Shown here one piece after another: positions 22,273 to 64,000 of a stretch of 64,000 nt of DNA; positions within the stretch are counted from its first letter, which is position 1; every line of letters begins with the position of its first letter. The stretch comes from Mycobacterium cookii (lineage in GTDB: Bacteria; Actinomycetota; Actinomycetes; Mycobacteriales; Mycobacteriaceae), in the NCBI RefSeq assembly GCF_010727945.1, contig NZ_AP022569.1:1922001-1986000 (forward strand), in the 5' to 3' direction. The position numbers and the translations under genes are program-made. The notes beneath the pieces are model-generated. The model had not been told where the DNA came from. It made no database searches and worked only from the letters and a program-made list of their open reading frames with translations.

Positions 22273-22399
22273 ATCCCCTGCCGCACAACACATTAGGGAA
22301 CTGCGCGGTAATCGCGTGATCACCTTTCGTTGGCGTGCTGTGAATTACCCGGTCACAACGCCCAAAACAGGCATGCCACAACACCCCCAGGCGATGCTG

Positions 22400-22408: not shown

Positions 22409-22414
22409 TCCAGG

Positions 22415-23251: not shown

Positions 23252-23309
23252 CGTCCTTCCCGGGCGATCGCCCTTGCGTCGGTAAGTCTTCACGGGAGGG
23301 TTAGTCCGC

Positions 23310-24626: not shown

Positions 24627-24637
24627 TCCGCCCGGCG

Positions 24638-25423: not shown

Positions 25424-25503
25424 CGCGTTAGCCTATCTGCCTGCACATCACGCTCTCTGATGTGTCCAACTTTCCGTACTTGGTTGTGTCGACCTCCACA
25501 CCG

Positions 25504-30253: not shown

Positions 30254-30446
30254 GGCGCCCCCCTTCCACCCCGTTGGACCGATGCCCGCTGAACGTACCG
30301 GGGATGCACCGTGCTGTGCCACTCGGGAGGTGACTATCACCGTCAAGATTCCGTAAGTGAATTGAGAATGGCAGACCACTATGCAATTTTGCGAATTTGC
30401 TAGCCGACTATTCGACCTGAGCACAATTAATGCAATCGCGCCGATA

Positions 30447-30486
30447 AACAATGGGGCCCCCAGCATTCGCGGGGGGCCCCATTGTT
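30447..30486 (-). terminator. Strong hairpin, probable terminator of paralogue B
   Basis: A perfect 15-bp stem (AACAATGGGGCCCCC and its complement at 30472-30486) with a 10-base loop, 11 bases beyond the stop codon at 30498. On the minus strand the stem runs into TTGTTTATC, a weak U-rich end. It is the strongest hairpin noticed outside genes in the window. Confidence 0.75.
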
Positions 30487-30497
30487 GCGCTGTGCGT

Positions 30498-32180: not shown

Positions 32181-32425
32181 GGCTCCCCCTTCACTTCAGT
32201 GTTCGATGCCTCAACAGGGACTGAACATACACTAAGAAATTCTAAGTTGTTACGGAATTTGAAATTGTTGCTGAAGTCCATCCTGGCTCGACTCACAGCA
32301 AATTAACACTTCCGTTTAACTAAATGAACCAACCATCCAACATGTTGGACTCGACGGCCAATAACGCAACCGTGATTTGTCGAAAGTGTCCTGAGCCGGA
32401 CGTAAGCGCGGCGGTAGAACCGCAG

Positions 32426-36175: not shown

Positions 36176-37006
36176 GTGACCGACAAAGTATCCGTCGACC
36201 TCAGCGGTCCCTCGCAGACAATGCTGACCACGCTGTACTGCAAGGCCCTCGACGCCGACTGGGCTCGGCCCATCCTGGGTGACACCTTCGCCAAGGACGC
36301 GGTGGCACGGATCGACTACGACTGGAGCGGCCTGAAGGTCACCGACCGCTGGACGCCGTTGGTGACGGTACGGACGGCCCAGTTCGACGTCTGGGCCGGC
36401 GAATTTCTGGCCGCGCATCCGCAGGCCACGGTCATCCACGTGGGTTGTGGGTTGGACAGCCGGGTCTTCCGCTTGAACCCCGGGCCCGGCGTCGAGTGGT
36501 ACGACGTCGACTATCCGGCGGTCATCTCGCTGCGCGAGAAGGTTTTTCCGAGCCGAGGAAACTACCACCTGGTGGCCACACCGGCGACCGATCCGTCCTG
36601 GCTCGACCAGATCCCGGCCGACCGTCCGACGTTGTTGTTGGCCGAGGGGATCAGCATGTACCTGACCGAAGCCGACGGCATCGCGTTGCTGCAGCACGTC
36701 GTCGACCGATTCGGGTCCGGGGAGATACAGATCGACTACTACAGTCGGCTCGTCGTTCGGTCGCAGAAGACGCACCGCCTGCAGCGGCAGTCCGGTTCCA
36801 AGCTGTACTGGGCGGTCAACAACGCCGCCGATGTGGTGAACAAGCTGTCCGGGGTGCGGTTGTTGAGCGCCGTAACCTTCTTCGACGCAAGCACTTTCGG
36901 CCGGGCATCCGGCGTCTTCCGGTTGATGCGGCAGCTGGTTCGCCCGCTGCCGCCGCTGCGCCGGACATTCCAGTACCACCGCTACGCCTTCGGCCCGGTC
37001 AGCTGA
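36176..37006 (+). CDS. Putative SAM-dependent methyltransferase, LCMT/COG3315 family
   Basis: A 276-residue methyltransferase of the leucine carboxyl methyltransferase-like superfamily, which in actinobacteria is often found beside polyketide genes. SAM motif I is HVGCGLDSR (88-96), the adenine-contact region [14 protein letters not shown] follows, then [14 protein letters not shown] 36176 is preferred over a longer in-frame extension that overlaps the flavodoxin gene, and a -10 hexamer lies eight bases before it. It is convergent with papA5, overlapping it by 8 bases. It is unrelated in sequence to the three Rv2952-like methyltransferases. O-methylation of the polyketide is possible from context only. 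Confidence 0.85.
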
Positions 37007-38258
37007 CACCACTGGTGGCGTGCTGCTCGGCGACGGCGACCAGCTGCGCCTGGATGGCCGCGACCGACTTCTCCGGCTCCGGCCCGTGCGAGTTGTACTC
37101 GATGTTGAGCTGGTCGGCGTAGATCTGGGTGAAGTAGATCTCGATTCCGGCGCTGACGGCGAAGTAGAGCTCGCCGTGTGTGGCGGTCACCTCCACACCC
37201 GGAGGTGTGCGCACCGGAGGTACCAGACCGTTGTCGGACAGCAGGACCACGTCGGGCATTCCCGGCGCGTTGCCGACATACTGCGGACTGAAGTGCAGCC
37301 GGGACTGCTGGATGACGCCCTCGTCGAGGTCTGCCTTGAAGGTCAAGGCGATATCGCGCGCGAGGTCGACAACCGTTGTCTTGTGGTTGATTTCGGCGAG
37401 GTAGGTGCCCAGACCGACCGGGTTCGTGCATCCGGTTGCCGACACCGGCGGGTTCAGGAAGTACCGCAGGTCGACGGTGTAGATGAACGGGACCGGAATG
37501 TTCAGCTTGCCTCGAACCTCCCACTCCCCGATCAGGATCGCGGCGGACAGCACCGAGTGCAGCCCGAGCCTTTCCGCGCGGCACAGCTCGACCAGGGCGC
37601 GGGTGTGGTCTTCGCTCAGCCGCGCTGACACCATCGGAACACGCACCGGCTCAGAGGGTTTGACACCGGTGTCGGCACGCCGCGACGGCGGGAGGTCGTA
37701 GGCGAACAGCGCCGGCATGAAACGTTCGATCCCCGAGCGCGGCCCCTTCTGGATCCCCCGGTCGGCGAGCACCGTCTCGATCGATTCCGGCGCCGGTTGG
37801 GCGGTGACCGGACCGGTCTGTCCTTTGCCGACCAGGTCGGTGTAGAACGACAGCAACTCTTCGATCAGGCCGTACATGTGGTGCCCGTCGGCCAGCGCGT
37901 GGTGCACGTACAGCGTCGGGTGCGCCTGACCGTCGCGGATGGTCACCCGCAGGTGAACCAGCGCCTCGCCTTGGTCGAAATGCGGTGCGGGCCCCTCATC
38001 GTCAGGACCGTCGACCTCTACGACCTCGATGCCGGAGTGAAGCAGATCATCGGCCACCAACTCGTGGCGGCCGTCCTCTCCACGCTCGAGGCGCGCGGTG
38101 AGCACCGGGTGCGCCTCGAGCAAGGTGTCGAAAGCGTCCGACAGCGCGTCGATGTCGATCGGACCCTGCATTTGCGCGGCGAGACCCACGAAGTTGTGCG
38201 TCTCGGCGAGCATCTCTTCGCTGAGCGCCAGCTTGCGGATGACCGACGATGGAAACAC
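36999..38258 (-). CDS. papA5: PapA5-like polyketide-associated acyltransferase
   Basis: A 419-residue acyltransferase of the condensation superfamily. In M. tuberculosis PapA5 transfers mycocerosyl groups from Mas onto both hydroxyls of phthiocerol. The catalytic HHxxxDG is HHALADG (119-125; His120 as base), close in position to His124 of PapA5. Other family matches are FPSSVIRKL at the start, [45 protein letters not shown] and MRTPPG-like [12 protein letters not shown] 38258 is preferred because GAGAGG precedes it and the protein then begins like PapA5. It lies 31 bases downstream of the PpsE-like gene in the same direction. No mas gene or drrABC transporter is present between them, so the acyl donor must come from elsewhere. 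Confidence 0.9.
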
Positions 38259-38289
38259 GTTGCGCCTCTCTAAGCCGGACCTGTCCTTT

Positions 38290-41200
38290 CTAAGACAAGT
38301 CCACCAGTTCGAGTTCATCGCTGCCGGAGTCCATCTCGTCCTCGGCGAGCGCCTCGCGGATCAGCTCCAGCAGTGTCTGGGAGAAGCCACTGGCAAGTGC
38401 CTGCACGGTGGCCGCGTCGACCCGGCGGCTGTCGTACCACCAGTCCAGATGCAGCACACCCGCTGTGCGGAACACCCGTAATTCGATCGGGTGACCCAGC
38501 CCCGCGATCGCTTCGCGCACCGGTAGCGCGGTGTCGGAGTCGAATCGGACCGCGACATCGTCGCCCAGCGGCGGCAGATCCGGGATCGTGCCGATGTAGG
38601 AGAAGAAGATGTCGGCCGGGCCGGTGGCGCCGAGCTGTCGCGCGGTCGGGGCATACAGGTAACGCAGCAGCCCGTAGCCGATTCCGTAGTGTGGGACGGC
38701 AGTCAGCGTGTCGTGCACGTCGTCGAGCAGCCGCTTGGCGCCGTCCTGCTTGGTGCAGCTCAGCGCGACCGGGTAAACGGTGTTGAACCAGCCGACGGTG
38801 CGACGCACGTCGACGTCGGGCTTGAGCACCGAGCGACCCTCGCCGCTGAGGTCGACGGCGACGGTCCCGTCGCCGAACTGGTGGGCGATCGTCCGACCCA
38901 ATGCGGCCAACAGCATTTCGTCGATCGGCACCCGCAGCCGCCGGCGGGCGTCGTCGATCTCGGTCGTCTCCGCGACCGTCAGCGACAACGCGCTACGGGC
39001 CAGGTCCTGCAGGCCCGGCGCTCCGGCGGTCTGCTCGCCCGCCACCCTCAGCGTCGGCGCCGTCGCCGTCTTCAGCCAGTAGTCGCGGCTTTCGACGACC
39101 GCCGGGTGCACGGCCAGTGCCGCGCAGCGCTGCGACCACTCGGTCCACGGCGTCGTGACCGGTTGCAGCGCAATCTCTTCGCCGGCCAGTTGTTGCCCGA
39201 ACGCGGTGAAGGTATCGGTCAGCAGGATGTCGCGCGACGCGTTGTCGGCCACGATCGCCCGCACACTGATCGCGAGGTAGCACGAGCCGCCTGGTACGCC
39301 GCGGACATACGTCGCGATCAGCGGGTTGGATGGGTCTTGTTGGCGGACAACGTCGATCAGGGTCGACAGCAGCGCATCGCGTTCCTGCGGCGTGCCCGGT
39401 TTGATGTCTTCCGGCAGCGAGCGGGTGGCCAAGTCGGCGAAGGCCTCCCCTTCCGAGGGCTCGCTCACATTCTGCTCCCAGGTGCCTGCGCGTTCGACGA
39501 GTCGCAGGCGCAGCGCCTCGTGGTGGTTGCGCAGCGCGGTCAGCACCGCGCAGACATCGTCGACCTGCACGTCGGGGCGCAGTTGCAGGATCAGCGGTAC
39601 ACGCCACTGCTCATGCTCACGCACGCCGTGCTCGAGGAAGTAGGAGATGTTCGGCGGCACCGGCGGATGCGTGACCTCACCCGGCGCCTGCCGGCCCAGG
39701 CCGCCGGCCGCGTAGCGGGCCGTCAGCGCCTTGGCCAACGCGGCAACCGTCTGATTCTCGTAAAGATCCTGCGGCGTGAGGTCCAGGCCTTCGTTGGAGG
39801 CGTTCATCGCGACGCTGATCGCGACCAGCGAATCACCGCCCAGCTCAAAGAAGTTCGCGTTGCGTTCGACATTGGGCAGCCCGAGGCACTGGCCCCAGAT
39901 GCGTTGCAGCGTCGCTTCCATCGCCGACTTGCCGGACGCGCTGGCCTGCGCAGCCTCGGCACCGCCGGTCGACGCGGCGGCCGCCCCGTTGGTCGCCGCG
40001 GCGTCACCCGTCCACGTCGTCTGGCGGTGCTCGATCCAATGCCGTTGCCGCTCAAAGGGGTAACCGGGCAGCGTGAGAAGACGGCCGGACTGCCCGCCGC
40101 GCAGCGGCGCCCAGTCGACGTCGACCCCGGCGGCCCAGAGTTGGCCCAGCGCCAACAGGAACGCGTCGCGGTCGTCGCGGTTCTGGGCGTGGTGGCGCAT
40201 CAGCCGCACGGCGTGGTGTTCGGTCGACCACTTGGGGTGCCGTGTCGCCGAGGCGGTCAGCGTGCCACCCGGGCCGACCTCGACCAGGACGCGGCGCGGA
40301 TCGCCGAGCAGCACGTCGATCTCGTCGGAGAACCGCACCGTCGAGCGGACCTGGCGCGCCCAGGTGGACGGGTTGGTGGCCTCGCTGGCGGCCAGCCAGG
40401 TCCCAGTGACGTTGGACAGCAACGGAATCTGCGGTTCACGCAGCGTCTGCCGGGACAGGAAGCCGGTGAATTCCGGGATCATCGAGTCCATTAGCCGCGA
40501 GTGGAACGCGTGCGAGGTGCGGACCCGACGCGCAACGACGCCGTTCTGTTTGAGCCGATCGCTGAATGCCTTGATGCTTTCCTCGGACCCGGCGACCACG
40601 CAGCCGCCCGGCTCGTTGATCGCGGCGATGTCGACGTCACCGGTCAGGTGCTCGGCGAGCGCATCGGGGCCCAGCGCGACTGCGACCATCACGCCACGGG
40701 GTGCGGCGTGCATCAGCCGGGCGCGCATCGAGACCACCTTGATGGCCGTCTCGATGTCGAAGACGCCGGCGATGGTGCCCGCGACGTATTCGCCGATGCT
40801 GTGCCCGACCATCGCCGCCGGCCGCACACCGTAGCTTTCGATCAGCTTGGCCAGCGCGTACTCCACGGTGAACAGCGCGGGCTGGGTGCGGTCGGTGCGC
40901 TCCAGATTGCGTGCGGTGCCTTCGAAGATCTCCGCGCGCAGGTCGACACCGAGCTCCGCGTTGAAGCCGGCGGCGCACTGGTCGAAGTGCTCGGCGAACA
41001 CCGGCTCGCCGTCGTACAGTCCGCGGGCCATCCCGATGTGCTGTGCACCCTGACCGGGGAACAGGAAGACGACCTGATCCGAATTGTCTTTGTTCTCAGC
41101 GAATTCGCCGATGAAGACGTTGTCGTTCTCGGCGGTCTCCAGCACGGTTCTCGCGTGCTGCTCGTCGTTGACGACCGCGGCCATCCGGATCTTCTCTTTG

Positions 41201-42693
41201 CGGCGACGGCCGAGTGTGTAGGCGACGTCGGTCAGGCTCAGCGCGTCGCTGCCGGAGATCGCGGCAGCCAGCGCCGTGCGCGACTGCTGCAGCGCCTCGG
41301 GGCTGCGGGCCGACATCAGCAGCACCTGGGGGCCGGGCTTCGGGGTCGAGACCGGCACCGGCGGCGCCTCCTCCAGCACCACGTGCGCGTTGGTACCGCC
41401 GACACCGAAGGAGCTGACGCCGGCACGCAACACACCGTCCCACTCCCAGGGGCCGTATTCGCTGCGGACCTTGAAAGGTCCACGGTCGAGGTGTAATTCG
41501 GGGTTCGGGCTGGTGTAGTGCAGCGTCGCCGGAATGGCCCGGTGCTTGAGGCACAGGATCGCCTTGATCAGGCTGGCGATGCCGGCCGCCGATTCCAGGT
41601 GACCGATGTTGGACTTGACCGAGCCGACGTAGCAGGGGCCTTGACGAGGCTCTTCGGAAACCTCGAAAGCCTGCCGCAAGCCTTCGATTTCGACCGGGTC
41701 GCCCAGTGGCGTGCCGGTGCCGTGCGTCTCGATGTAGCTGATCTCCGACGCGTCGACTTCGGCGATCGCGTGCGCCTCGGCGATCACGTCGGCCTGGCCG
41801 GCGGCGGTCGGGGCAGCGTAGGTCATCTTCGTCGAGCCGTCGTTGTTCAGTGCCGAACCGCGGATCACGGCGTGGATCCGGTCGCCGTCGTCGACGGCAT
41901 CCTGCAGCGCCTTGAGCACCACGACTCCGACACCGCTGCCGAAAATCGTGCCGTCGGAGCGGGCGTCGAATGGCCGGCAGTGGCCGGTCGGCGACACCAT
42001 CGAGCCTGGGGCGTACCAGTATCCGACGTGATGCGGGATGCGCAGTGACGCCCCACCGGCCAGCGCCACCTCGCACTCGCCGTTCAGGATGCTCTGGCAG
42101 GCCAGGTGCACCGCCACCAACGCCGACGAGCACGCCGTCTGCACCGACAGCGCGGGGCCGCGCAGATTCAGCGCGTACGCCACCTTGGTGGCCAGGTAGT
42201 CTTTGTCGTTCTGCATCGACAGGTTGACCATGTCAAACGTGATGCCCTGTCCCATAACCACATTGGGGTCATAATTGGACATGATGTTGTGCAGCAGATA
42301 CCCGCTGGTGGTGCTCGTCGCATAGACACCCACCGTGCCCTCGATCTCGGCGGGGTCGTAGCCGGCGTCCTCGATCGCGTGAAACGCGGTCTGCAGGAAC
42401 AGCCGGTGCTGCGGATCGGTCGAGCGGGCCACCTGCGGAGTGAAGCCGAAGAAGTCGGCGTCGAATTCCTCGATTCCGTCCATCAACGCGGCGCGCCGCA
42501 CATAGGCGGAATTCGCCAGCGCCTTCTCCGGAATGCCCTCGGCCAGCAGGTCATCCTCGGACAGCGTGACGATGGACTCCTCGCCACGAACCAGGTTGTC
42601 CCAGAACGCCGACAGCGTGTTGGCGCCGGGCAACCTGGCCGCCATGCCGACAACCGCGATCGCGTTGGGCGGCAGTTCGCTGGTGCTGGTCAC
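38290..42693 (-). CDS. ppsE: PpsE-like type I PKS: KS-AT-ACP-condensation-like domain
   Basis: A 1467-residue terminal polyketide synthase very similar to M. tuberculosis PpsE. KS occupies about 9-440 with Cys188 (QTACSSA), then [11 protein letters not shown] and [10 protein letters not shown] follows with Ser632 in GHSIGEY and a HAFH motif, usually linked to malonyl selection although PpsE shares it. ACP Ser955 is in GGDSLVAIS. The last 450 residues resemble a condensation/acyltransferase domain ([35 protein letters not shown]), as in PpsE, where it may help release or transfer the chain. There is no KR or DH, so the last beta-carbon stays a ketone. GTG 42693 overlaps the previous stop (GTGA). 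It should accept the chain from the PpsD-like protein and pass the product towards PapA5. Confidence 0.93.
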
Positions 42694-45600
42694 ACTCGGT
42701 CTCCTACCTTTCGCCGCGCGGCGGCGCGCTGCCGGGCTGCGGCACGCTGCTTGGCTCGATCACGAACTCCGCCTGCGCTTTCGGCCTTGTCTACTTCTTC
42801 CAGGCCGAGCTGGCGGATGAGGTCGGTGGTCAACGCGGCCAGCGAGGCCCCCTGCAGCAGCAGGGCCACCGGCGGCTCGACACCGAAGTCGCCGCGGACC
42901 GTGTTCCGAATTCGCACGGCCATCAGCGAATCCATGCCCAGCTCGGTCAGCGGCCGATCGGCGTCGATCGTGCTGTCTTTCGGGTAACCCATGATAGCCA
43001 GGATCCGGGTGGCGAGTCGCCCGATAACGACCTGGTTGGCTTCGGCGGCAACGAGTTCGCGCAACGCGTCGGGACCGGCCCAGTCGTCGTCCTCGCTGTC
43101 GATGTCGAGTTCCTCGGCCAACTTCGCGAAGTAGCCGAGTTGCTGGATCTCCGGGAACGCCGCCGCGGCGCGGTCCAGCCGCAGCCGGGCCACACCGATA
43201 TTGACCGGCCGGCTGGCCAGGATGGCTTCCAGCGCCTCGATGCCCTCGGCCGGTGAAATGGGGTCCAGCGCACTGAATGTCAAGGTACGGGCGACGCCGA
43301 TATCGGACCACTGACCCCAGTTGATCGCGGTGGCAGGCAAACCCGACGCCCGTCGCCAGTCGACCAGACCGTCGAGCCAGGCGCTGGCGGCGGCGTAGGC
43401 GCCCTGCCCGGGCGCCCCCAGCAGTGACGACGTCGAGGAGAAGCCGAGCCACCAATCGAGTTCTGCGCCTTTGTCACCCGAAGTCACCGAGTGCAACCGC
43501 AGCGCGCCATTGGCTTTCGGAGCCCATACCCGCTCCAGGCTGTCCTGACTGAGGCCGGCGACGATCTGGTCGTCGAGCACGACAGCGCTGTGCATCAGGC
43601 CGCGCAAGCTCAGCCCGGTCTCCTCAGCCGCGTCCACCAGCTTCTCGGCGACGCCCGGCTCGGCGATATCGCCCAGCACGACGGCGATTTGCGCCCGCTG
43701 CTGCAATTCGTCGACCAGCGCCTGCGCCTCGTCGGACGGTGTGGACCGGCCGTTGAGCACCACGCGTCCGGCGCCGCTGTCGACCAGCCATCGGGCCATG
43801 GCCAAGCCCAGCCCGCGGAGACCACCGGTGATGATGTAGGAACCGTCCGGCCGCACCACCGTGTCGGCCTTGGCGTCACTCAGTGTCGCGCGGGAAAGCC
43901 GTTTGGCGTAACGCTTTTCGTCGCGCCAGGCGATGATGTCGTCGCCGGTCAGGCCGAGCTCGTCGGTCAGCCGGGCCACTGCGTCACCGGGCAGGTCGAC
44001 CAACGTGGTGCGCAGGTCCGGGTGCTCGTAGGCCAGCACCCGGATCAGCCCGGTCAATGCGCTGATCGACGGATCGCCGGATTCGCCGTCGCGGACTGCC
44101 AGCCCGTCGCGGGACACCACCCACAGTCGAGGCGGTTTGCCGTGCCAGCCGGTGAGGATCGTGCGAACCGTCGACGCGACTGCCCAGGTCAGGTCGCGAC
44201 CGCGGCCCGCGGCGTCGTCGGACTCCGAGCCGTCGAACGGCTCCCGGCCCGCGAAGACGACCACGCCCACCGGTGGCAGCTCAGGGTCTCCTGCGGCTTG
44301 CGAGAACGCTTCCAGCACAGCCGATTCCCGAGCCAGGTCAGCGGTGACGACCCGGCGGGTCGGTGAGCCGAATGCGGCGGTGAATTCCCGCGCGACTGCC
44401 TCGGCTTCGGCGCCGTCGGTCAGCACCAGCCAACTGCCGTCGGCCGGCTGCGCCGCCGAGTCGACCTCGGTGTGCACCCACTCGGTGTTGAAGATCTTCT
44501 GCTCCAACGGCATCGGCACGGTGCGGCGCTGCACGCGTTGCAGGTAGATACCGCTGATCTCGGCGGTGGGCTTGCCGGTGTCGTCGGTGATCAGGACGCG
44601 GCCCATGATGCCGGCCCCGTCTGCGTCTGGGTTGACCAACTCGGCGCGGCACCGGGCGCGGCGTCCGACTTCACCAAACACCCGGATCTTCTCGAAGGAC
44701 ACCGGCAGATAGGTCGCCTCGTCGGAATCGGCCAACGATTCGCTCGACAGCGCTGCGGCAAGGCCCTGCAGCGCAGCATCCAGCAGCACCGGGTGAATGC
44801 GGTATCCGCGATGGCCGGTCGCCTCGTCCGGCAGCACGATCTCGGTCTCCGAGGTGCCGTTGGGGCCCCGCACGATGCGGGTCAGCGCGGCGAACGCCTG
44901 CCCGTGGTGCAGGCCGGTGGCGCGCAGCGCGGCATACAGATCGGCAGGCGAGAGCACCGTGCCGGGTTCCGACGAAGCGGGCGGCACAGTCGGTGCTTCC
45001 GACTGTCCCACTTCAACTTTCGCGACGGCGTGACGAATCCAGGCACCGGTGGCCGAGCGCGAGTGGATCTCGACGCGGATCTCGTCACCGTCCTTCTCGC
45101 CGCGGGTCAGCAGCGTGGTGAGCTGGGTCGACTCGCCGAGCGGCAGCATCTGCTCAACCTCGACGCCGACGGACACCGACTGCGCCGGCAACCCAAGGGC
45201 CTCACAGGCTGCCGCCAACGCGATCTCGCCGAAGCCGGTGCCGGGCATGACCGGTTGGCCGTGCACTTTGTGATCGAGCAGGTAGGGAACGAGGTCCGTC
45301 CCCACGTCGGCGGTGAAGACGTGGTCGCGGCCGGACGGCAATTCGACGTGCGTGCCCAGCAGTGGGTGGGCGCTGGCCGGTTGCCGGTTGGTCGCCGTCG
45401 GCGCCGCCCAATACCGGGCGTGCTGCCACGGGGTCGGCGGCAGATCGGCGATTCGCTTGACGCCGGTGTCGGCCGCGGCAGCCGATTGTGGCCGCACCGT
45501 CGCCAGTTGGGTGTGGAACGTCAACGTCTCCGGGTTGTCCCGGGTCAACGTCGCGGCCACCTGGATGCCGCCGCGCGGGCGAACCGATTCGAGCGTGCCG

Positions 45601-48097
45601 GCGATGGCGTGACTGAGCAGCGGATGCGGGCTGACTTCGACGAAGCTCGCGTGCTTTTCGGCCGCGGTGGCGACGGCCTGGCTGAACCGCACCGGGTTAC
45701 GCAGGTTCACCACCCAGTAGTCCGCATCGAACAAGGGCGCCCGGCCGCCTTGACCGACCGTGCTGATCAACGGAATCTTCGGGGCCCGCGGCATCAAATC
45801 GGCCAGCGCCGTGCGCAACTCGTCGAGGATTGGGTCGACGGTCGGGTGGTGCGAGGCAACGTCCACCTCGACGCGGCGGGCAAGCCGGCCGCGGGCGTCG
45901 ACGACCGCGATGGCCGCGTCGACCTGATCGGGCGGGCCGGCGATCACCGTCTGCTGCGGCGCCGCATACACCGCGATGGTGATGTCCGGGTAGTCGCCGA
46001 CCAGTTTCTCCGCTTCCTCGGCGCCCAGTTCGACGAGCGCCATCGCGCCCTGACCCGACAGCCGCGACATCAACTTCGACCGCGTCGCAATGACTTTCAA
46101 ACCGTCGGCGGGGCTCAAGGCACCCGACACCACCGCCGCGGTCACCTCGCCCATCGAATGACCGATCACCGCGTCGGGCTCCACGCCGTAGGACCGCCAC
46201 AGCGCCGTCAACGCCAGCTGCATGCCCACCAGCACCGGCTGAATCCGCTCGATACCGACCACCGGCTCACCGGCAACCAGCACATCACGCAGCGAGAAAC
46301 CCACCTGCGCAACGAAATCCGGCTCCAACTCGGCCACCGCCGCAGCAAAAGCCGGCTCGTCGGCCAACAACTGCCGACCCATCCCGGCCCACTGCGAACC
46401 CTGACCCGAGTACAAGAACACCGTGCCCGAACCCCGAGGCGCCTCACGCGGACCGACCACACCGGGCGTGGGCTGCCCCGCTGCCAGTGCGCGCAGCCCG
46501 GCCACGGCCTCGTCGCGGTCACGCGCGCAGACGGTGGCGTACTTGTTGTGGCGAGTGCGGTAGAGGTTCACGGTGTGGGCGATGTCGGCCAGCGGCACGC
46601 CGGCGCCGTCGCCGGACATCCACTCGGCCAGCACCGCCGCCCACGACGCGATGCGCTGCTCGGTTTTGCCAGCGATCGTCAACGTCGTTACCGGAGAAGC
46701 TGATTCGGCTTCCGACAGCGGCGCCGGTTCCGGGCCCTGCTCGACGACGACGTGGGCGTTGGTGCCACCGATGCCGAACGACGAGATCGCGGCCCGTCGC
46801 GGACCTTCTTCGGCGGGCCACGGGGTGAGCTCGGTCGGGACGAACAGCCGGGTCGGTTTGGGGTCGATCGCCGGATTCCATTGCGCGAAATGAAGATTCG
46901 GCGGGATCTGAGCCCGTTGCACCGACAACGCGGCCTTGATGAAACCGGCGATGCCGGCGGCCGCCTCGAGGTGGCCGAAGTTGGATTTCACCGCGCCCAA
47001 CGCGCACGGCTTGTCGCCGCGGCCGTACTGGTCGGCCAGCGCTTCGAATTCGATCGGGTCGCCCAGCCCGGTGCCGGTGCCGTGCGCCTCGATGAAGTTC
47101 ACCGAGCCCGCCGTCACGTCGGCGCTGCGCAGCGCCCGGGCGATGACATCCTGCTGCGCGATGGTGTTGGGCGCGGTCAGGCCGTTGGAGCGGCCGTCCT
47201 GGTTGACCGCCGAGCCGCGGACCACGGCCAGCACCCGGTCGCCGTCGCGAACCGCGTCGGTGAGCCGCTTGAGCACCACGACGCCGCAGCCCTCACCGCG
47301 GACGAACCCGTCGGCGCGGGAGTCGAAGGAATGACAGCGGCCCTGCGGGGACAGCATTCCCCACTTGGCCATGGCGATCTGGGTTTCCGGCCGCAGGATG
47401 AGGCTGACGCCGCCGGCCAGGGCGAGGTCGCTCTCCCGCAACCGCAGGCTCTGGCAGGCCAGATGGATGGTGACCAGCGACGACGAGCATGCGGAGTCGA
47501 TCGCCACCGCCGGACCGCGCAAACCCAGTGTGTAGGCGATGCGGCCGACCGCGACAGCGTGGGCGTTGCCCGTCGCCGAGTAGGCATCGATGGCGTCCGG
47601 GTTGGCCGCCGAAATCGTCTGGTATTCACCGTAATACACGCCCATCATGACGGCGGCCCGCACGCCGGACAGATCCTCGGTCGCGATGCCGGCGTGCTCG
47701 AGCGCTTCGAAGGCCACTTCGAGCATCAGCCGCTGCTGGGGGTCCATCGCTTCGGCTTCGCGTGGAGAGATGCCGAAGAAGTCGGCGTCGAAGCCGGCCA
47801 CATCGGACAGGAAGCCGCCCCACTTCGACGACATCCGGCCGGGAGCGAACTGGTCGGGGTCGTAGAACTCGTCGGCGTTCCAGCGGTCCGCCGGGATTTC
47901 GCTGATCCCGTCACCACCTGAGGTCAGGAACTTCCAGTAGCCCTCCGGGCCCTCGGCGCCGCCGGGGAACCGGCAGCCCATGCCGACGACCGCGATCGGC
48001 TCGGCAGAAGCGACCCGCGACGCCTTGTCGAACTGCTGCGTCAGCGCGTCCCGCTTGTCGCCGGGCATCGCCGAGACTCTGTCGTAAATCGTCGCCA

Positions 48098-48098
<1 letters not shown>
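42690..48098 (-). CDS. PpsD-like type I PKS: KS-AT-DH-KR-ACP
   Basis: An 1802-residue module. KS Cys204 is in DSACSSS (Ser where Thr is usual), AT Ser648 in GHSMGEV with VDVASHHP, DH with an intact active site (His943 in DHKVHGQPVMP and the aspartate in HPVLLDAALQ), KR with TGGLRGLG and the catalytic FSST...GQGAYAAA block, and ACP Ser1724 in GMDSLMAV. The tail (RDRAKQRAAARQRAAARR) matches what I recall of PpsD, which docks to PpsE. The head, however (MATIYDRVSAMPGDKRDAL), looks like the PpsB head, not the PpsD one. The AT is nearly identical in DNA to the AT of the next gene upstream. Without an ER it should leave a double bond unless a trans enoylreductase acts, as Rv2953 does for PpsD. ATG overlaps the previous stop by one base (TGATG). 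Confidence 0.9.
45661..46433 (-). repeat. AT-domain repeat, copy in PpsD-like gene
   Basis: 773 bases that align without any gap to 50943-51715 (constant offset 5282). The right half (from about 46029) is almost unchanged, including silent positions; the left half differs more. It encodes most of the acyltransferase domain, including GHSMGE and VASH. Confidence 0.9.
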
Positions 48099-53401
<5,303 letters not shown>

Positions 53402-53406
53402 CGCGC

Positions 53407-56400
53407 TTAACCCAACCTGTCCGAAAGCTGTTTGAGCAGTTCGTCGTCGCTGAAGTCGTCATAGGCGTCGGCGTCGTCATCCTCGGCCGCCTCGACCAGC
53501 TCGGGCAGCAGGGTGGCCAGGTAGTCCGACAGCGCCTCGACGGTTGGATAGTCGAACACCACTGACGCGGGCAGCGTTTCACCGAGGCTGTCCGACAGGG
53601 CGCGCTGCAGGGTCACACTCATCAGCGAGTCCATCCCGGACTGGAAGAAGCCCGCGGTCGGATCGAGCAATTGCGGCGAGGCCAACCCCATCGCCTGGAC
53701 AACCTGCGTGGTGACGTGATCGACCAGCAGGCCGCGGCGTCGAGCCGGCTCGGCGTCGCGCAACGTCTCCCGTAGCTTGGTCGTGTGGGCGGCGCCACCG
53801 TCGTCGGCGCCGTCGTGCACGGTCAGCAGATCGTCCACGATGTGCAGGGCCGCCCTGGTGCGGTACGCGGTGGCGAGCAGGCCCCAGTCGGCGGCGACCA
53901 CCGTCGGGCGGGCCGGCGCACCGGGTCCGGTCAGCAACGGCAGCACCTTGATCGCGACGTCGTCGGCCATCGGCAGCAGACCGGAACCGCTCGTGACCTG
54001 ACGCTCCTCCTCGGATTGCCCGTCGGACAACGACTTCCACAGACCCCAGTTGATCGCGGTAGCCGGCAGGCCGGCGGCCCGGCGGGCCATCGCGAAGGTG
54101 TCCAGGAAGGTGGTCGTCGCCGTGTAGTGGGCCAACCAACGGGATCCGGTCAGGCCGGAGATCGACGAGAACAACACGAACTGCTCGATCGCATGCCGCA
54201 CCGAAAGCCGGTGCAGCAGCGACACCACGTCCAGCTTGGGCCGGAACATCGCGGTCACGTCGTCGGTTGTCATGTCCAGCAACGTGATCGGACCACCGGC
54301 GAACGCCGCCACGTAGATGCCGGCCAGCGGCGGCAGATCGGCGCCGAAACGGTCGAACACCGCGCTCATCGCCGACTCGTCGGCCGCGTCGGCGGCAACC
54401 GTCACCACTGAAGTGCCTGCGGGTACCAGGCTCGCCGCCAGCTCGTCGAGCTTGGAACCGGGGTTGCGCGATACCGCGACGACGGTGCCCGCACCCGATT
54501 CGGACAGTTGCCGAATCAAGTGCGGCCCGATGTTTCCGGTCGCACCGATCACCAGATAGCTGTGGTCCTTGTCGAGCGTGGCCGGCTCCGTGGCCGGCGG
54601 ATACCCCTTGTGCAGTCGCGGAACTCGACGCTGACCGGCCCGGTAGACGACCTGGTCTTCGCCGTCGTCGGCGCGCGCCTCGTCCACCACGTAGCGGGCG
54701 ACCACGCCGTCCGGCACCGACTCGTCGACATCGATGACGCCGCCCCAGAATTCGGGGTGTTCCAGGGCCAGCGTGCGGCCCAAGCCCCACAGCACCGCGT
54801 GGGCGGGGTTGCCCCGGTCGCCTTCGCTGACCGGTTGGGCGTTACGGCTTAGCAGATACAGCCGCGGCGCGACACCCATGTCGGCGATCGCGGCGGACAA
54901 CCGCCGCGCGGCGTTGAACAACGCGTATCCCGCTTCAAAGTCGAACGGCCCGCCGGTCACCTCGGGTGCGTACAGCACATGCGTCACCCCGGCCAGCGCG
55001 TCGGTGATCGCCGTCGGGTCCGCCCCGTCGGCCAGCAACGACGACGGTTCGACCATCGCGGCGAATTCGTCGCCGAGGACATGACCGATCTCGGCGCCCA
55101 GCCCGGAGTCGGTGATCACCAGCCACGAGTTGTCGGCATCCGCCTCGGCAGCGGACAGTTCCCGGACCGGCCAGTCCAGCTGCAGATACCACTCCGACGG
55201 AATCGGACCGTCGAGGGCAGCCGAATCGACTGGCCCCGCAACACTTCTGACCGGAGACAGCGGCCGCGGGTTGACCCAGTAGTGGCCGTGGTGCCACGGC
55301 GTGGTCGGCAGCACCGGGTGCGGTTCGACCGGATGCGAGGTCTGCGGTGGATGGTTGGTGTGGACGGTGTTGAGGTTGGTGTGGAAGATGACCGTGTCGT
55401 CGCCGTCCCGCCACAGCGTTCCGGTGCTGTGGTGGTGGTTCGCGGGATCCAGCGTGTCGGTGACCGCGTGGGTCAGGATCGGATGGGCGCTGATCTCGAT
55501 GAAGGTGGTGTGCTCATCGGCGGCCGCGGCGACGGCCTGGCTGAGCAGTGCCGGCCGGCGCACGTTGGCCACCCAGTAGTCGGCGTCCAGCAGCGGCGAC
55601 GTGAGACCTTCGGTGACCGTCGAATAGAACGGGATGGTCGGGATCTCGGGCGTCAGATCGGCCAGCGCCGTGCGCAAGTCGTCCAGGATCGGGTCCATGA
55701 ACGCGGTGTGCGACGCGACCTCCATGTTGACCCGACGGGCGAACTTGTTCTGCGCGCTCACCGCGGCGATCACCGCATCGACCGCGGCCACCGGGCCCGC
55801 GATCACCGTCTCCTTCGGCGAGATATAGCCCGCCGCAGTCACATCGGGGTAATCCGCGATCAATGCCTCGGTGGCCTCGGCGTCGAGTTTGAGCAGCCCC
55901 ACCGCGCCCTGGCCGGCCAGCTGTGACATCAGCTTCGAGCGGATGGCGATCACTCGCAACCCGTCGACCACACTGAGCGCACCGGCGGCCACCGCGGCGG
56001 AGACCTCACCCATCGAGTGACCGATCACCGCGTCCGGGTGCACGCCGCAGGAGCGCCACAACTCGGTCAGCGCCAATTGCAGCCCCATCAGCACCGGCTG
56101 AACCTGCGCATCACCGCTGATCGGCTCACCGGTTTCGATAATCTTCTGCAGCGAAAAGCCAACCTGCTCAACGAAAATCGGGTCCAACTCGGCGATCGCC
56201 TCGGCGAACACCGGTTCGTCGGCAAGCAGTTGCCGGCCCATGCCCGCCCAGTGCGAACCCTGGCCCGAGTACACGAAAACCGTTCCGGGGCCGCACGGCC
56301 CGTCGTGCGCGGCCACCACGCCCTCGGCCGCCCGGCCGTCGGCCAGCACCCGGAGTCGCTCCACCGCCTGTGCACGGTCGCGTGCGGCGACGGTGGCAAA

Positions 56401-58164
56401 GTGCGGGTGGCGCTCGCGGTGGTAGTTGAGTGTGTGCGCGACGTCGGGCAGTCGCACGTTCGCGCCGTCACCCTCCAGCCAGTCGGCCAGCGACGCGGCC
56501 AGCGACGCGATCCGCTCCTTCGACTTGCCCGATACGACCAAAGTGGTCACCGCCGGATCGGCCTCGCGGATAACCGGCACCGCTGCAGGAGCCTGCTCGA
56601 TCACCGCGTGAGCATTGGTGCCACCGAACCCGAACGACGAGATTCCGGCCCGCCTCGGGTGCTCGGTCTGCGGCCAATCCTGTTGCTTGTCAACAACTTT
56701 CAGGCGCAGCTGATCGAACGGGATGTGCTCGTTGGGGTTGTGGAAGTGCAGGTTCGCCGGGATGCTCCCGCGCTGCACGGCCAGCACCGCTTTGATCAGG
56801 CCCGCCGCACCGGCCGCGCCCTCGAGGTGGCCGATGTTCGTCTTCACCGTGCCGATCAGCAGCGGCGCGTCTTCGGGACGCCCGCGTCCCAGCACCGTAC
56901 CGAGCGCACGGGCCTCGATCGGGTCGCCGAGCGGCGTCCCGGTCCCGTGGGCCTCGATGTAGTCCACCTCTTGCGGCGGCACACCGGCGTTGGCGTAGGC
57001 CGAGCGCAGCACCGCCATCTGCGCCGCGGGGTTGGGCGCCAGCAGGCCGTTGGAGCGGCCGTCCTGGTTGACCGCCGAACCCCGCACCACCGCGAGCAGT
57101 CGGTCGCCGTCGCGCACCGCGTCGCTGAGCCGCTTGAGCACCACCATGCCGCAACCCTCGCCGCGGATGAACCCGTCGGCATCCGCGTCGAACGCATGGC
57201 AGGCACCCGTCGGAGACAACGCGCCGGTCTGATCGAAGGCGCGCACGACCGCGGGCGCCAGCATCAGGTTGACGCCGCCGGCCAGCGCCACGTCGGAGTC
57301 CCCGGTGCGCAGGCTCTGGCAGGCCAGGTGCAGCGCGACGATCGACGACGAGCAGGCGGTGTCGACGGTGACCGACGGGCCGCGCAGATCCAGGAAGTAA
57401 GACAGCCGGTTCGCGACGATGCTCAGCGCGCCACCGGAATTGCTCCACGCGTCGACGTTGGTCAGGTCCAGGGCCGCCACGTATCCGTAGTCGGTGTAGC
57501 ACGCGCCGGTGAAGACACCGGTCTGCGAGCGGCGCAGCGAGCTCGGCGGAATGCCGGCGTGTTCCAGTGCCTCCCAAGCGACTTCGAGCAGCATCCGCTG
57601 CTGCGGGTCCATCTTGGTCGCTTCGCGGCTGGAGATGTCGAAGAACTCGGCGTCGAAGGCGTCGATGTCGTCCAGGTATCCGCCGAAGCGGGTGGTGCGG
57701 GCCAGAGCCGCTGTCGTCTCAGGCGAGCCGTCGTCGAACGGCGCCCACCGGTCCGGCGGCACCTCGGTGACGGCGTCCTTGCCGTCGACCATGAATTCCC
57801 AGAACTCGTCCGGCCCGTGGATGCCGCCGGGGAACCGGCAGCCGAGGCCGATCACCGCGATCGGCTCGTCGCTCTGCACCCGGTGCGGCTCATCTTCGGC
57901 TTCGGCAGCGGTGAGGGCATCGGCGTCGGTCAGGAAGCGGGCCAGCTCGGCGATCGACGGGTGCTGCCAGAACTCCACCGGCGACACCTTGCGGCCGAGC
58001 AGCTCGGACAACTCGCCGGAGAGCACGACGACGTCCCGCGAACCCAGACCCAGGTCGCTCATCGGGGCGTCAAAGTCGATGTCGTACGGGTTGCACCCGA
58101 CGTTCGTGACGAGATAGTCGGCCAGCCAGTGTCGCAGCGCCCCTTCGTCATACGACGACGTCAT
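53407..58164 (-). CDS. Pps-like loading and extension PKS: ACP-KS-AT-KR-ACP
   Basis: A 1585-residue protein. It begins with a free-standing ACP ([20 protein letters not shown]; Ser42 in LGLGSRD) like the loading ACP of PpsA, which receives a fatty acid from FadD26. KS Cys271 is in DTACSSS, AT Ser717 in GHSMGEV with MEVASH, KR has the variant nucleotide motif IGATGNIG with FSSISG and Tyr1347 in HYTATT, and ACP Ser1513 is in SGMDSLMSV. There is no DH. The tail ([12 protein letters not shown]) looks like the PpsB tail. So it combines a PpsA head with a PpsB-like body and tail. ATG 58164 is chosen over an upstream in-frame start because the ACP then begins as in PpsA. It lies 46 bases after the previous PKS stop and 5 bases before the next start. 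Its position as second gene, not first, is odd. Confidence 0.9.
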
Positions 58165-58210
58165 GACCAGACCTTCAGTCGGCTGGATGCACCTTCCCGG
58201 TAGCGCCTCA

Positions 58211-61200
58211 TCACAAACCCCTCTCACTGCCGGCCGGTGCCGATTCCACGCTGTCGAACAACTCACTCAGGACGCCGCCGTCCGAATCGCCCTGCGAGTC
58301 GAGCTCGCTGTCCGATTCCGTCTGCGGCAGAACCTTTTTCGCGAGATGCCCCGCGAGTGCAACGATAGTCGGGTAGTTGAAGAGCATCGTGGCGGACAGC
58401 TCGATGCCGACGAATTGCTCGGTGTCCCGGCGCACCGACATCGCCATCACGGAGTTCATGCCAAGCTCGGCGAACGGCCGGTCCAGCTCGAGTTCGGATT
58501 CGGGCATCTGGAGTTCGCGGGCCAGGATCGCACGCAGGCCATCCTGGAGTTCGCGGTGCACGTCGTCGGCCGACATCTCCGACCATGCCGGTGACGTCCC
58601 GGACGGCTCGGCGTCCGTCGACTCATCCGACGACGGCAGCGGCGCCATCACGGCCTGCGCGACGTCGTAGCGCTCGAGGTGGTCCCACGCCGCGAAGGCT
58701 TCCTCGGCGGTCACCGGGCGCGAGCCCAGTCGTTCGAGTTCCTGCAGCGCGATCTGCGCGTCGGCGCCGAAACCGAGGCCGCGCCAGGCGACCCAGTCCT
58801 GGCTGACGGTGTGGCAGCCCTGGCCGTGCCGAGCCCGCGCCAGGCCGTCGAGGTAGGCGTTGGCCGCCGCATACGCGCCCTGGCCGGGGACACCGAAAAC
58901 GGCACCGGCCGCGGCCGTCAGGAAGAAGAAGTCGACGCTGCCCGGCGGGAACGCCCGGTGCAGTACCTGCGCGCCGGCGATCTTCGGCCAGATGGTGCGG
59001 CGCAGGTGGCTCTCCTCGACGTCGGTGAACAGCTGCGCGTCGGTGATGCCGGCGCCGTGGATGATGCCGCGGACCGGCGCCGCTCCCTCGGCGTCACGCT
59101 TGGCCAGCAGGGCCTGCACGGCGTCGGCCGAACCGATGTCGAGGGACACGGCTTCGACTGCGACACCGCGCATTTCGAGCGCCCGGATGGCGGCGATCTT
59201 CTGCTTGGTGTCGGCGTCGTTGGTGTCGGCGTCCCACTCCCGCCGCGGCGGCAACGGGGTACGGCCGGCCAGGATGACGCGACGCGCGCCGTGGTCGGCC
59301 AGCCAGCCGGCCATCAGCAGACCGAGCGCACCCAGGCCGCCGGTGATTAGATATGCCGCGTCGGGCCGGCAGCGCAGCGGCTCCCGCTGCGTCTCACCGG
59401 CCACCGGCGCAAGGGCCTGGGTCACGAATTCGCCATTGTGCAGCGCCAGAATGGTTTTGGCCGGTGTCCGCAGAATCGTCGACAGCGCGGGCAACTGCTC
59501 GCCGATGTCCACACCGTCGGGCAGATCGACCAGACCGCCCCACAATTGCGGCTGCTCGGCCCGGATCACTCCGGCCGTGCCCCACAGCGGGCTTTGCGTG
59601 ACGGCGGCGTCGGAACTGCCTTCGCGTACACCGCGAGTGATGATCCACAGCGCGACCGGGTTGTCGTCGTCCCGCTCGGCCAGACCCCGTACCAGCTCGG
59701 CCAGTTCCATCGACGTGCGGATCGCGAAGTCGGAATCAGTTTCGCCAGTGTGGATTTCCGGGATGTAGATGACGTAGCGCGCGTCGGCGACGGTCGCCGC
59801 CGAGTAGCCGGCGCGGCCCAACCCGTCGCGCACGGTGTGATCGCCGATCACCGCGACCGTGCGCGGGCCGTCGTCGTGACCCGCGTCGGGCGTGAACGGC
59901 TGCCAGTCGATGGCGTGCACCATCGTGGCGGGATCGTCGGCCCGGCCGGCGGCCGCGCTCGAGTCCACCGCGGTGTAGCGCAGCCCGTGTACCTCGACGC
60001 ACGTGCTGCCGTCGGAGGTGGTGACCGCGACATCGACGACGAGCTCTTCGTCGTTGCCGCCGCGACGGCGGACCTCGACGTGGCCGTGCGGCTCGGCGAG
60101 CTCGGCGCCGAAGTGCACGCCGGCGACCGCGGCCGGCACCATCAGCCGCGGGTTGGCGCTGTCCAGCAGCCGGCCGAGATGAATTGCGGCGTCCAGCAAC
60201 GCAACTGACGATGCTTTGGTCAGCTCGACGTCGGCATGCAGGACACCGGCCTTCGACTGGCAGGAGCCGACCGACCAGCCGAACGGTCGTCCTTCGCTGC
60301 CCCACGTCTGCCAGAATTCGGTGACCGACTCGTCGGTGAAATCGGTATCGGTGGCACCCGGAGCGGCAACCGCGTTGTCCGACTGGGTCTCCGGGGCGTC
60401 AGCGATGCGCGCGGTGGCGTGGCGAATCCAGTGCTGCGCCTCGGAGGCGCTCGATGACACCGTCACCGATCCGCCGTCGGCGACCACCTGGATGACCCGC
60501 GGCTCGCCGATGACGATCGGGTAGTCGAATCGGACACCGGACAGCTTCGACCCCGCGGCTTCGCAAAGCGTTTGCAGCAGAACCGATATCGGGATGATCT
60601 CGACGCCGTTGTTGTGGTGCGACCCGGGATACGGCTTCGTGGTGGGCGCGAGCCGCGCCTGCCACAGATGTGCCGGCGGTGTCGCGGCTACCGGGATGTG
60701 CTGACCGAGCAGCGTGCCGGGCTTCGGCGCGGATTCGGCTGTCTTGACAAAGTGTTCGGCGCTGATCCAGTGCTCAGAGTGATGCCACGGCGTGCTGGGC
60801 AGCACCGGATGCGGCTCGGGCGGGTGCGGCAACTCGGGCGGACGGATGGTGTGGGTGCTGTTGAGGCTGGTATGGAAGCTCACCGTGTCATCGCCCTTGC
60901 GCGACAACGTCCCAACGCTGTGATGGTGGTCGGTCTCCAGCGTTTCGGCGACCGCGTGCGTCAGCGTGGGGTGCGGGCTGATCTCGATGAAGGTGCCGTG
61001 CTGCTCGGCGGCAGTGGTGATGGCCTGATGCAGCCGCACCGGCTGGCGCACATTGGCGACCCAGTAGTCGGCGTCCAGCGGCGGTGTGCCGTCGGCGACG
61101 GTGGAAATGAACGGGATCGTCGGCGTCTTGGGCGTGAGATCGGCTAGGGTCGAACGCAATTCGGGCAGGATCGGATCCATCATCGCGGTGTGCGAGGCGA

Positions 61201-63460
61201 CTTCCATGTTCACTCGCCGCGCGAAACGCTCCTGCGCGCTGACCGCGACGATCACCTCGTCGACCTGCGCCACCGGCCCGGCGACCACGGTCTGCCGCGG
61301 CGAGAGGAACCCGGCAGGGCTCACCGTCGGGTAGTCGGCGAGGAAGGCCTCGGCCGTCTCGGCGTCCATCTCCAGCAGCGCCACCGCGCCCTGGCCGGCC
61401 AGCCGCGACATCAGCCGCGATCGGGTGCCGATGACCCGCAGCCCCTCGTCGGGGGTGAGCGCACCGGCGACCACGGCCGCGGTCACCTCCCCCATCGAAT
61501 GTCCGATCACCGCATCGGGTTCCACGCCGTAGGAGCGCCACAACGCGGTCAGCGCCAACTGCAGACCCATCAGCACCGGCTGCACGCGCGCATCGCCGGA
61601 TACCCGCTGGCCCTCGGTCAGCACCTGCTGCAGGGAGAACCGCATGTGCTCGACGAACAGCGGCTCCAACTCGTCGATCGTCTCGGCGAACACCGGCTCG
61701 TCGGCCAGCAGTTGCCGACCCATGCCGGCCCACTGCGAGCCCTGGCCCGAGTAGACGAAAACGGTGCCCGGCTTGCAGAACCCTTCGTGCGGGCCGACCA
61801 GGCCGATCGCCGACTGGCCCGCCGCCAGCGCCTGCAACCCGGCTACCGCGTGGGCCCGGTCGCGCGCGCACAACGTGGCGAATGTCTTGTGATGGGTGCG
61901 GTGGTGGTTGAGAGTGTGGGCGATGTCGGTCAGCGACACGGCGGCGCCCGCTCCCGTCATCCAGTCGGCCAGCACCCCGGCCGTCGATGCGATCCGCGCC
62001 GGCGTCCTGCCCGACACAACCAGGGTGGTCACCGCCGACTCCGGTTGCGGTGCAACAGCTTCGGTGACCGGTGCTTGCTCGATCACCACGTGGGCGTTGG
62101 TGCCGCTCACACCGAACGACGACACCCCGGCTCGCCGTGCCCGCCCCACCGCGGGCCAGGGCATCCCGTCGGCCGCGATGGTGAACTTCGACGCTCCTTC
62201 GACGGCGTTCGGGGTCAGCTTGGTGAAATGCAGATGCTGCGGAATGTAGCCGTGCTGCACGGTCAGGACGGTCTTGATGAAACCGGCGATGCCGGCGGCT
62301 GACTCCAGGTGACCCAAGTTGGTCTTCACCGACCCCAGCACCAGCGGCGCCGAGCCGTTGCGCTCGCCGAAAACCTGGTGCAGTGCACCCAACTCGATCG
62401 GGTCGCCCAGTGCTGTACCCGTGCCGTGCGCCTCGACGTAGTCGATCTCGGAGGGCTCCAGCCGCGCCGACGCCAGCGCCGAGCGCACCACCGCCTGCTG
62501 AGCGGGCCCGCTGGGCACCGTCTGACCGCTGCTGGGGCCGTCCTGGTTGACCGCCGACCCGCGCACCACCGCCAGCACCGAATCGCCGTCGCGTACCGCG
62601 TCGCTGAGCCGCTTGAGCACCACGACGCCGCAGCCCTCGCTGCGGACATAGCCGTCGGCGCCGGCATCGAAGGTCTTGCAGCGGCCGTCGGGGGCCAGCA
62701 TCCCCCACCGCGAGGTGGCAACGCTGTTTTCCGGGCTCAGCATCAAATTCACGCCGGCCACCAGCGCCTGGTCACTCTCCCGCTTGCGCAGGCTCTGGCA
62801 GGCCAGATGCACGGTGACCAGCGACGACGAGCAGGCGGTGTCGAGCACGACCGCGGGGCCGTGCGCGCCCAGGAAATAGGACAAGCGTCCGGCAGCAAAG
62901 TTCGCCGCGTTCCCAAACGGGACATGCGGGTCGACCTCTTCCGGCGGCAGTCGGCCGGCCAGGGTCAGCGTGTAGTCATACGTCGTCATACCGACGAACA
63001 CCGCAGTCTGGGTGCCGCGGATCTCCGGGGCGGTGATACCCGCGTTTTCCAGTGCCTCCCAGGTGACTTCGAGCAGCAGCCGCTGCTGGGGATCCATCGC
63101 CGCGGCCTCGCGCGGCGAGATCCCGAAGAATTCGGCGTCGAACTCGCTGGGCCGCCAGGACGTCAGAAAACCGCCCTCTTTGCTGACGATCGTGCCCGGT
63201 ATCGAGTGATCGTCGGCGTAGAAGGCGTCGGCGTCCCAACGCTCCGACGGAACCTCGACGATGCCGCTGACGCCGTCTTGGAGCAACTGCCAGAACTGCG
63301 CGGTGCTGTCCACTCCCCCGGGCAGCCGACAGCCCATTCCGATCACCGCGATCGGCTCGGTGTCACCCTTTTCGGCGATTTCCAACCGCGCCGTCAGGTC
63401 GTCGATCTTGCGCAACGCCTCGGTGATGATCGCCCGACGGTCCGACGGTGCAGCAGTCAT
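58211..63460 (-). CDS. Pps-like type I PKS: KS-AT-pseudoDH-KR-ACP, PpsC-type head, PpsA-like body
   Basis: A 1749-residue module, first PKS gene of the operon. It has no loading ACP; its head helix ([20 protein letters not shown], 8-27) is almost the same as in the gene at 48098. KS Cys210 is in DTACSSS, AT Ser655 in GHSMGEV with MEVASH. A DH-sized region ([18 protein letters not shown] onward) lacks HxxxGxxxxP, like the corresponding part of PpsA. KR has TGGLGALG and Tyr1530 (GQGAYAAAN), but the position 13 residues before Tyr, normally Ser, is Ala1517 (LTAAAG). ACP Ser1670 is in LGMNSVMAM. The tail ([14 protein letters not shown]) resembles the PpsA tail. GAGGGGAGC precedes ATG 63460. It should yield a hydroxyl, or a ketone if the KR is impaired. 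Confidence 0.9.
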
Positions 63461-63752: not shown

Positions 63753-64000
63753 TCACGCGGTGGAATCCAAACGGCTGAACTCATCCTGCCGGTAGACCTC
63801 GACACACGAGGAACGGCGGATCTTCCCGCTGGTCGTGATCGGAATAGAGCCAGGCGGCACCAGCACCAGGTCGGCCACCCGCAACCCGTGCGACTTCGAA
63901 ATCGCTGACGTCACTTGCTGTCTCACGTCGCGGAGCCGCTCCTGCTGCTCGGCCTCGGAGCCCTTCTGCTTCATCTCCGCGATCACGACCAGCCGCTCGG
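63753..64000 (-). CDS. Fatty acyl-AMP ligase FadD, C-terminal end (runs off window)
   Basis: The last 82 codons of an acyl-AMP/acyl-CoA ligase of the FadD26/28/32 type. Visible are LVVIAEMK, the conserved [20 protein letters not shown], and [12 protein letters not shown], in which the Lys of SGKIRR is the C-terminal-domain catalytic lysine, then [11 protein letters not shown]. In Pps systems this enzyme adenylates a long fatty acid and loads it on the first ACP; the loading ACP here is at the start of the 53407-58164 protein. The start and any FAAL-specific insertion lie right of the window. Whether it is a FadD26 orthologue cannot be settled from this end alone. Confidence 0.9.

Follow-up and report, generated by a model that had tools for sequence, protein, structure and literature searches.

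A mosaic DIM-type polyketide synthase locus of Mycobacterium cookii with a predicted mid-line fork that rejoins

The stretch of DNA analysed here (the window) comprises 64,000 nucleotides of the Mycobacterium cookii contig NZ_AP022569.1 (positions 1,922,001 to 1,986,000; assembly GCF_010727945.1) and is part of a single-contig genome of 5.32 Mb. Five polyketide synthase (PKS) frames, all present and open, lie on the minus strand, and we named them K1 to K5 by gene order along that strand, K1 being the first PKS and K5 the last. By Pfam, K1 (58211..63460) has the domains KS-AT-weak DH-KR-ACP, K3 (48098..53401) and K4 (42690..48098) are both KS-AT-DH-KR-ACP, and the PpsE-like K5 (38290..42693) is KS-AT-ACP-condensation. 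K2 (53407..58266) has KS-AT-KR and two PP-binding stretches, one of them N-terminal, giving ACP-KS-AT-KR-ACP; its start is probably the ATG at 58164, rather than the GTG at 58266. The N-terminal stretch is a loading ACP of the PpsA class (E 1.2e-33; approximate limits 57931..58149, minus strand), and K2 alone among the five proteins carries one, as an earlier reading made from the letters alone (the sequence-only reading) had claimed. No enoylreductase domain was present among the Pfam matches of K1–K5 (up to E 0.01), and when PF03435 was used to search for a trans-acting enoylreductase, none of the 10 matches stood out as a clear candidate.

Upstream of K1, also on the minus strand, is a FAAL gene (63753..65498; L077:753-2498), of which the 3′ end (63753..64000) is inside the window and the rest beyond it. 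A TesA-like gene (66159..66935) lies upstream of the FAAL gene, beyond the window. Downstream of K5 is the gene for a PapA5-like acyltransferase (36999..38318, minus strand), the sole PapA_C match found in the genome. This gene order is that of DIM-type loci. Elsewhere in the window, three tandem paralogues of 519, 560, and 622 aa (28598-33985, minus strand) are 44-49% identical over long stretches and have no Pfam or NCBIfam match; their relatives sit downstream of the same PKS locus in four other genomes (G073, G022, G016, and G069). Two P450s, two methyltransferases, an AurF-like oxygenase, a flavin monooxygenase-like protein, and an SDR are clustered at 16188-26310.

The ends of the PKS proteins were classed with profiles built from PpsA-D of DIM-type loci in other mycobacteria (5 to 10 sequences each), using the 33 aa before the KS for heads B, C, and D, the loading ACP region for head A, and the last 40 aa of PpsA-D for tails A-D. 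At E<=10, each terminus matched one class. The heads of K1 (63362..63460, E 2.6e-21) and K3 (53303..53401, E 1.2e-21) matched the PpsC class only and are 91% identical to each other, and the tails of the same two proteins matched the PpsA class only (K1, 58214..58333, E 4e-4, the weakest class call in the window; K3, 48101..48220, E 1.4e-7). K2 ends in a PpsB-class tail (53410..53529, E 3.5e-11), and K4 has a PpsB-class head (48003..48098, E 7e-9) and a PpsD-class tail (42693..42812, E 6e-9), all of these on the minus strand. From K1 to K5, the window reads C..A, A..B, C..A, B..D, E. The classes agree with the heads and tails of the sequence-only reading, which had described near-identical PpsC-type heads and similar PpsA-type tails on the first and third PKS, a PpsB-like tail on the second, and a PpsB-type head on the fourth.

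Sliding-window BLAST resolved K1 to K4 as mosaics, in which the KS tracks the class of the head, the ACP tracks the class of the tail, and the middle comes from elsewhere. K1 has a PpsC head and KS and is PpsA from after the AT (weak DH, KR, ACP, and tail); K2 has the PpsA loading ACP and KS and is PpsB from after the AT; K3 combines a PpsC head and KS, the AT-DH-KR of PpsD, and the ACP and tail of PpsA; and K4 has a PpsB head and KS and is PpsD for the rest. K5 is PpsE over its full length. The AT windows were ambiguous for several of K1–K5.

In the DIM pathway, whose product is a phthiocerol-type diol carrying mycocerosate esters, the Pps proteins work in sequence from PpsA to PpsE. Only one wiring of the classed ends, K2 > (K1 or K3) > K4 > K5, respects the canonical contacts A>B, B>C, and D>E, and it runs against gene order. 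The same order, from the loading PKS to the first or the third PKS and on to the PpsD-like and PpsE-like proteins, had been proposed in the sequence-only reading, and the classes favor it as the probable route. It is further supported by a related locus (G112) with a single C-head/A-tail protein between K2-like and K4-like proteins, and by the near-identity of the receiving ends of K1 and K3 in 8 of 11 genomes, the window itself reaching only 80.7%. The weak match of the K1 tail is counted against this branched reading. Moreover, since K1 and K3 each join a C head to an A tail on one protein, iteration, or chains that pass through both K1 and K3, may occur. In the rest of the genome, scoring covered 7 other PKS ORFs with a KS active site and left out one further frame of 3082 aa; none of the 7 had a B, C, or D head or an A-D tail below E=1, the best tail match being to tail B at E 1.3. 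Other PKS did match head A, most strongly a Pks13-like protein at 4.9e-16, and these matches are a likeness between ACPs.

The locus has relatives in named species of Mycobacterium, Mycolicibacter, and Mycolicibacterium. We found 86 loci with a PpsE-like protein, 46 of them with a recognised loading head; five of these 46 (G169, G193, G154, G148, and G134) were entered by hand. Written as the head and tail classes of successive proteins, the DIM type is AA/BB/CC/DD/E. Shorter lines are AB/CC/DD/E (G143, G110, G132, and G031, the last with split genes), AA/BC/DD/E (G134, its PpsA-like gene in pieces), AB/CD/E (L022, M. komossense), and the two proteins A..D/E of G146. G112 reads AB/CA/BD/E; the window type adds a second CA protein to this line, and five loci (G037, G082, G054, G140, and G085) add an AA protein to it and have two FAAL genes. 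A C-head protein with no tail occurs in AB/C../CD/E (G087, G193, and G154) and AB/C../CC/DD/E (G095), and the locus of Ca. M. methanotrophicum (G148) is rearranged. A tail class and its partner head class are kept or lost together in 42 of the 46 loci, with weak classes (E 0.01-10, including several two-loader tails) counted as the best class; because the loci are related and partly duplicated, this concordance is a regularity and not an independent-sample test. The four loci discordant as read are G132 (head unread, with D-like BLAST windows), G006 and G031 (split genes), and G085, where a weak C-tail match falls on an extra frame.

Several of these relatives have features of their own. The two-loader loci (L088-L097, from the five genomes named above) each have two pairs of FAAL and loading PKS; from the classes, the A..A loader should feed the B..D protein directly and the A..B loader should do so via the C..A protein, a different kind of branch. 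The C-head PKS of G095, G087, G193, and G154 (L098-L101 and L146-L149) is ~1210-1300 aa long (KS-AT-ACP) and ends right after the ACP, and the KR motif was not found in it. The C-head protein with a B-type ACP is without a docking tail in four of the four genomes that have such a protein; a C..B protein could hand its chain back to itself. In the G148 locus (L139-L141), K2 lies on the opposite strand, K3 is truncated, and there are additional loaders, among them one with an A head, a PpsD-like middle, and an A tail; K1 and the AA loader of this genome have a common variant tail motif, LFAHVES. Loss of K2 from Ca. M. methanotrophicum is ruled out, as the gene lies ~42 kb away on that other strand.

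The head and KS of K1 and K3 undergo concerted evolution in 8 of the 11 genomes read. In these 8, the two proteins are 92-100% identical over head and KS, and each is more similar to its partner copy than to its own orthologues, the nearest overall to K1 of L010 being K3 of another genome; the tails of K1 and K3 are 47-59% identical. The three exceptions, at 79-81%, are the window and its nearest relatives, L009 and L011. At the DNA level, the K1 and K3 KS regions are identical (100%) in G066, and 99.0% (G073), 96.4% (G069), 96.2% (G022), 96.0% (G016), 90.7% (L010), 79.8% (window), 78.1% (L009), and 78.7% (L011) identical elsewhere; this comparison leaves out L014 and L015, and the K3 start of L012 is not readable (L019 and G066 are the same, and L014 is nearly equal to G022). 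In KS trees, K1 and K3 mostly pair by genome, with the G016 pair not sisters and the L010 pair at a support of 0.499. By contrast with the KS, each of the 21 tails read has an orthologue as its nearest relative, and tail trees group by paralogue within the PpsA class, except for two incomplete frames (K1 of L014 and of G073), which we regard as misplaced long branches because of that incompleteness. The KS of K1 and of K3 are nearest to their orthologues in the three exceptions (the window, L009, and L011), so that conversion is not current there, and we conclude that exchange between K1 and K3 has ceased in the window lineage.

An assembly artefact behind the K1/K3 identity is ruled out by the single-contig genomes G022, G016, G069, G073, and G169, in which the two copies carry real differences. 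Four draft contigs (G078, G101, G175, and G182) extend from inside K1 (residues 703-811), across K2, and up to where K3 starts, the pattern that assemblies breaking in a repeat would give; this count leaves out G160 and G166 (two-loader-like) and G130 (which ends inside K2).

K1 and K3 also differ in their active sites. In the KR of K1 (58781..59359, minus strand), the residue 13 positions before the catalytic Tyr, presumably the catalytic Ser of this family, is replaced by Ala, and the KR of K3 (48752..49282, minus strand) keeps Ser, Tyr, and Asn. The K1 change is conserved in 17 of the 18 loci read (two unreadable frames being left out), the other, G066, having Ser. A Ser occupies this position in each of the 15 K3 loci read and in three of three PpsA proteins, as it does in the AA proteins read from two-loader loci and in the C..A protein of G112; in type-B C..A proteins, the KR motif was not found with the pattern used. 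We infer that loss of the Ser would stop reduction by K1; it could instead reflect decay. In the DH of K3 (50003..50659, minus strand), the catalytic His of HxxxGxxxxP is missing, as it is in five of the seven K3 shown (window, L009, L011, G022, and G069), which rules out an active K3 DH as the difference between K1 and K3. The motif is kept in K3 of G016, and K3 of G066 has the His in a shortened motif; the second DH motif, HPVLLDAAL, is still present in the window. The DH of K1 keeps HxxxGxxxxP in six of the seven K1-type rows shown. The difference is therefore likely to lie at the KR, where K1 has exchanged Ser for Ala, and not at the DH, where K3 of the window has lost its His.

The AT of K3 (50768..51703, minus strand) is 85-100% identical to that of K4 in 40-residue bins over residues 561-840. 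An AT motif reads VASHT in K1 and K2, and VASHH in K4 and in PpsD, which uses methylmalonyl; in K3 it is VASHH in the window, L009, L011, and G169, and VASHT in the other K3 read. Together, the KR, DH, and AT differences predict a ketone from K1 and an alcohol from K3, methyl-branched in the window lineage. The sequence-only reading, in which a single reduction step separates the variants, probably has the right kind of difference; it is incomplete in that the AT differs as well in the window lineage.

We consider it probable, on the strength of these gene-level features, that the locus encodes a bifurcated DIM-like PKS line that forks at K1 and K3, rejoins at K4, and is predicted to make two lipid variants. 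The upstream FAAL would put a fatty acid on the N-terminal ACP of K2, which would add the first unit and, by its PpsB-type tail, deliver the chain to a protein with a PpsC-type head. K1 and K3, each with such a head, would compete for the chain: K1 would leave a ketone, its KR having lost the Ser, and K3 would leave an alcohol, its DH having lost the His with the KR intact, and in the window lineage would add a K4-type unit, probably methylmalonyl. Both would then donate, by way of a PpsA-type tail, to the sole PpsB-type head, on K4. From K4 the chain would go to K5, and the product of K5 would be released and esterified by the PapA5-like enzyme, so that one line would yield two lipid variants.

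Two genomes fit the interchangeability of K1 and K3 by reciprocal loss, in which sequence errors may have a part: K1 is interrupted before the ACP in G073, where K3 is kept, and K3 is cut down to 800 aa in G148, where K1 is kept. The interruption in G073 would also suit a K1 that is a relic, that is, a one-time loader that had its start replaced by a C head and is now redundant or decaying, with K2, K3, K4, and K5 making one lipid. K1 does occupy the position of PpsA behind the FAAL gene, and its KR has lost the Ser in nearly all loci read. However, that change is uniform rather than scattered, the open frame is maintained in two genera, K1 is intact in G148 with its truncated K3, and head and KS were homogenised with those of K3 in the 8 genomes described above. 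Nor does K1 stand out in dN/dS measured between the window and L009 (K1 0.196, K2 0.191, K3 0.225, K4 0.138, K5 0.169). We regard a relic K1 as quite unlikely.

Most window-type loci have both K1 and K3 intact, and A tails and C heads coexist in them, which would also suit a serial line in which K1 and K3 are used in succession, A-type tails docking C-type heads as well, and all five proteins make one longer chain. Such cross-docking is compatible with all the measurements. Nevertheless, an A tail that bound C heads would let K1 and K3 feed themselves, an A>C contact is needed in none of the 46 loci, B heads go with A tails in all loci as read but one (the split locus G031), and the G112 line works on paper with one C..A protein; the serial line is in our judgment unlikely. 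It is also conceivable that K1 serves a different line or finds a different partner in trans, given that the loader gene separates it from K3 and that it adjoins the FAAL gene. As K1 has no loading ACP, and the 7 other PKS ORFs offered no other B-type tail or head below E=1 (the 3082-aa frame lying outside that scoring), we deem this very improbable.

The branched line proposed here belongs to an enzyme chain related to that making the wax phthiocerol, and would have two interchangeable middle stations, alike in what they receive and donate and unlike in chemistry. A more general interpretation, which we find about evenly balanced, is that Pps interfaces behave as dominoes: recombination would have rebuilt the line into ~11 layouts with matching classes kept, and the fork of the window would be a stable keto/hydroxyl branch that rejoins, its receiving end held alike by gene conversion and its reductive core kept different. 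Judged from their genes, the rebuilt layouts appear to range from two proteins (A..D then E) to branched lines with either two loaders or two modules. If true, a mid-line fork that rejoins would break the rule that one line makes one product, and would do so for a major family of envelope lipids; the line is kept in species named Mycobacterium and Mycolicibacter. The rewired set is also a natural test of what is exchangeable in a PKS: the stretch from KS to ACP moves freely, and head plus KS and ACP plus tail stay with their partner class.

Among the matches listed by a literature search that covered few subscription journals, none dealt with Pps lines that are rewired or branched. The window resembles the PpsA-E (DIM) locus in having TesA and FAAL genes upstream, five PKS, a PpsE-like last PKS, and a PapA5-like acyltransferase, and in that each domain is nearest to a Pps protein. 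It differs in that the heads and tails are recombined and not colinear (A>B>C>D>E), two proteins (K1 and K3) stand for one position, there is no C tail and no D head, and the Pfam matches include no PpsC-like enoylreductase domain, the mark of the fully reducing PpsC-type module of DIM loci. The loading ACP is on the second gene, K2, and not on the first as in PpsA, which in the available text of two papers is loaded by FadD26 and has the domains ACP-KS-AT-DH-KR-ACP (PMC11837247, PMC9210659). K1 and K3, homologous subunits that share one class of receiving interface and one class of donating interface, have counterparts among nonribosomal peptide synthetases (NRPS). In the anabaenopeptin synthetase, as far as the available text describes it, two alternative AptA starter modules likewise form interchangeable proteins that feed one downstream line (PMC8402340); that system is an NRPS with a choice of starter, and the Mycolicibacterium loci with two loaders come closer to it than the window does. 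The closest precedent is the bifurcated wollamide/desotamide NRPS with WolG1 and WolG2, for which the available text reports two products shown chemically (PMC9205934). There, as here, subunits for the same position are duplicated and the core was changed by intragenomic recombination, seen here between K1 and K3 (head and KS, 8 of 11 genomes) and between the K3 and K4 ATs in the window. Two products come from one upstream line in that system and are predicted here from sequence, and the wollamide NRPS forks at its last subunit without rejoining, whereas the PKS line of M. cookii would fork mid-line and rejoin at K4.
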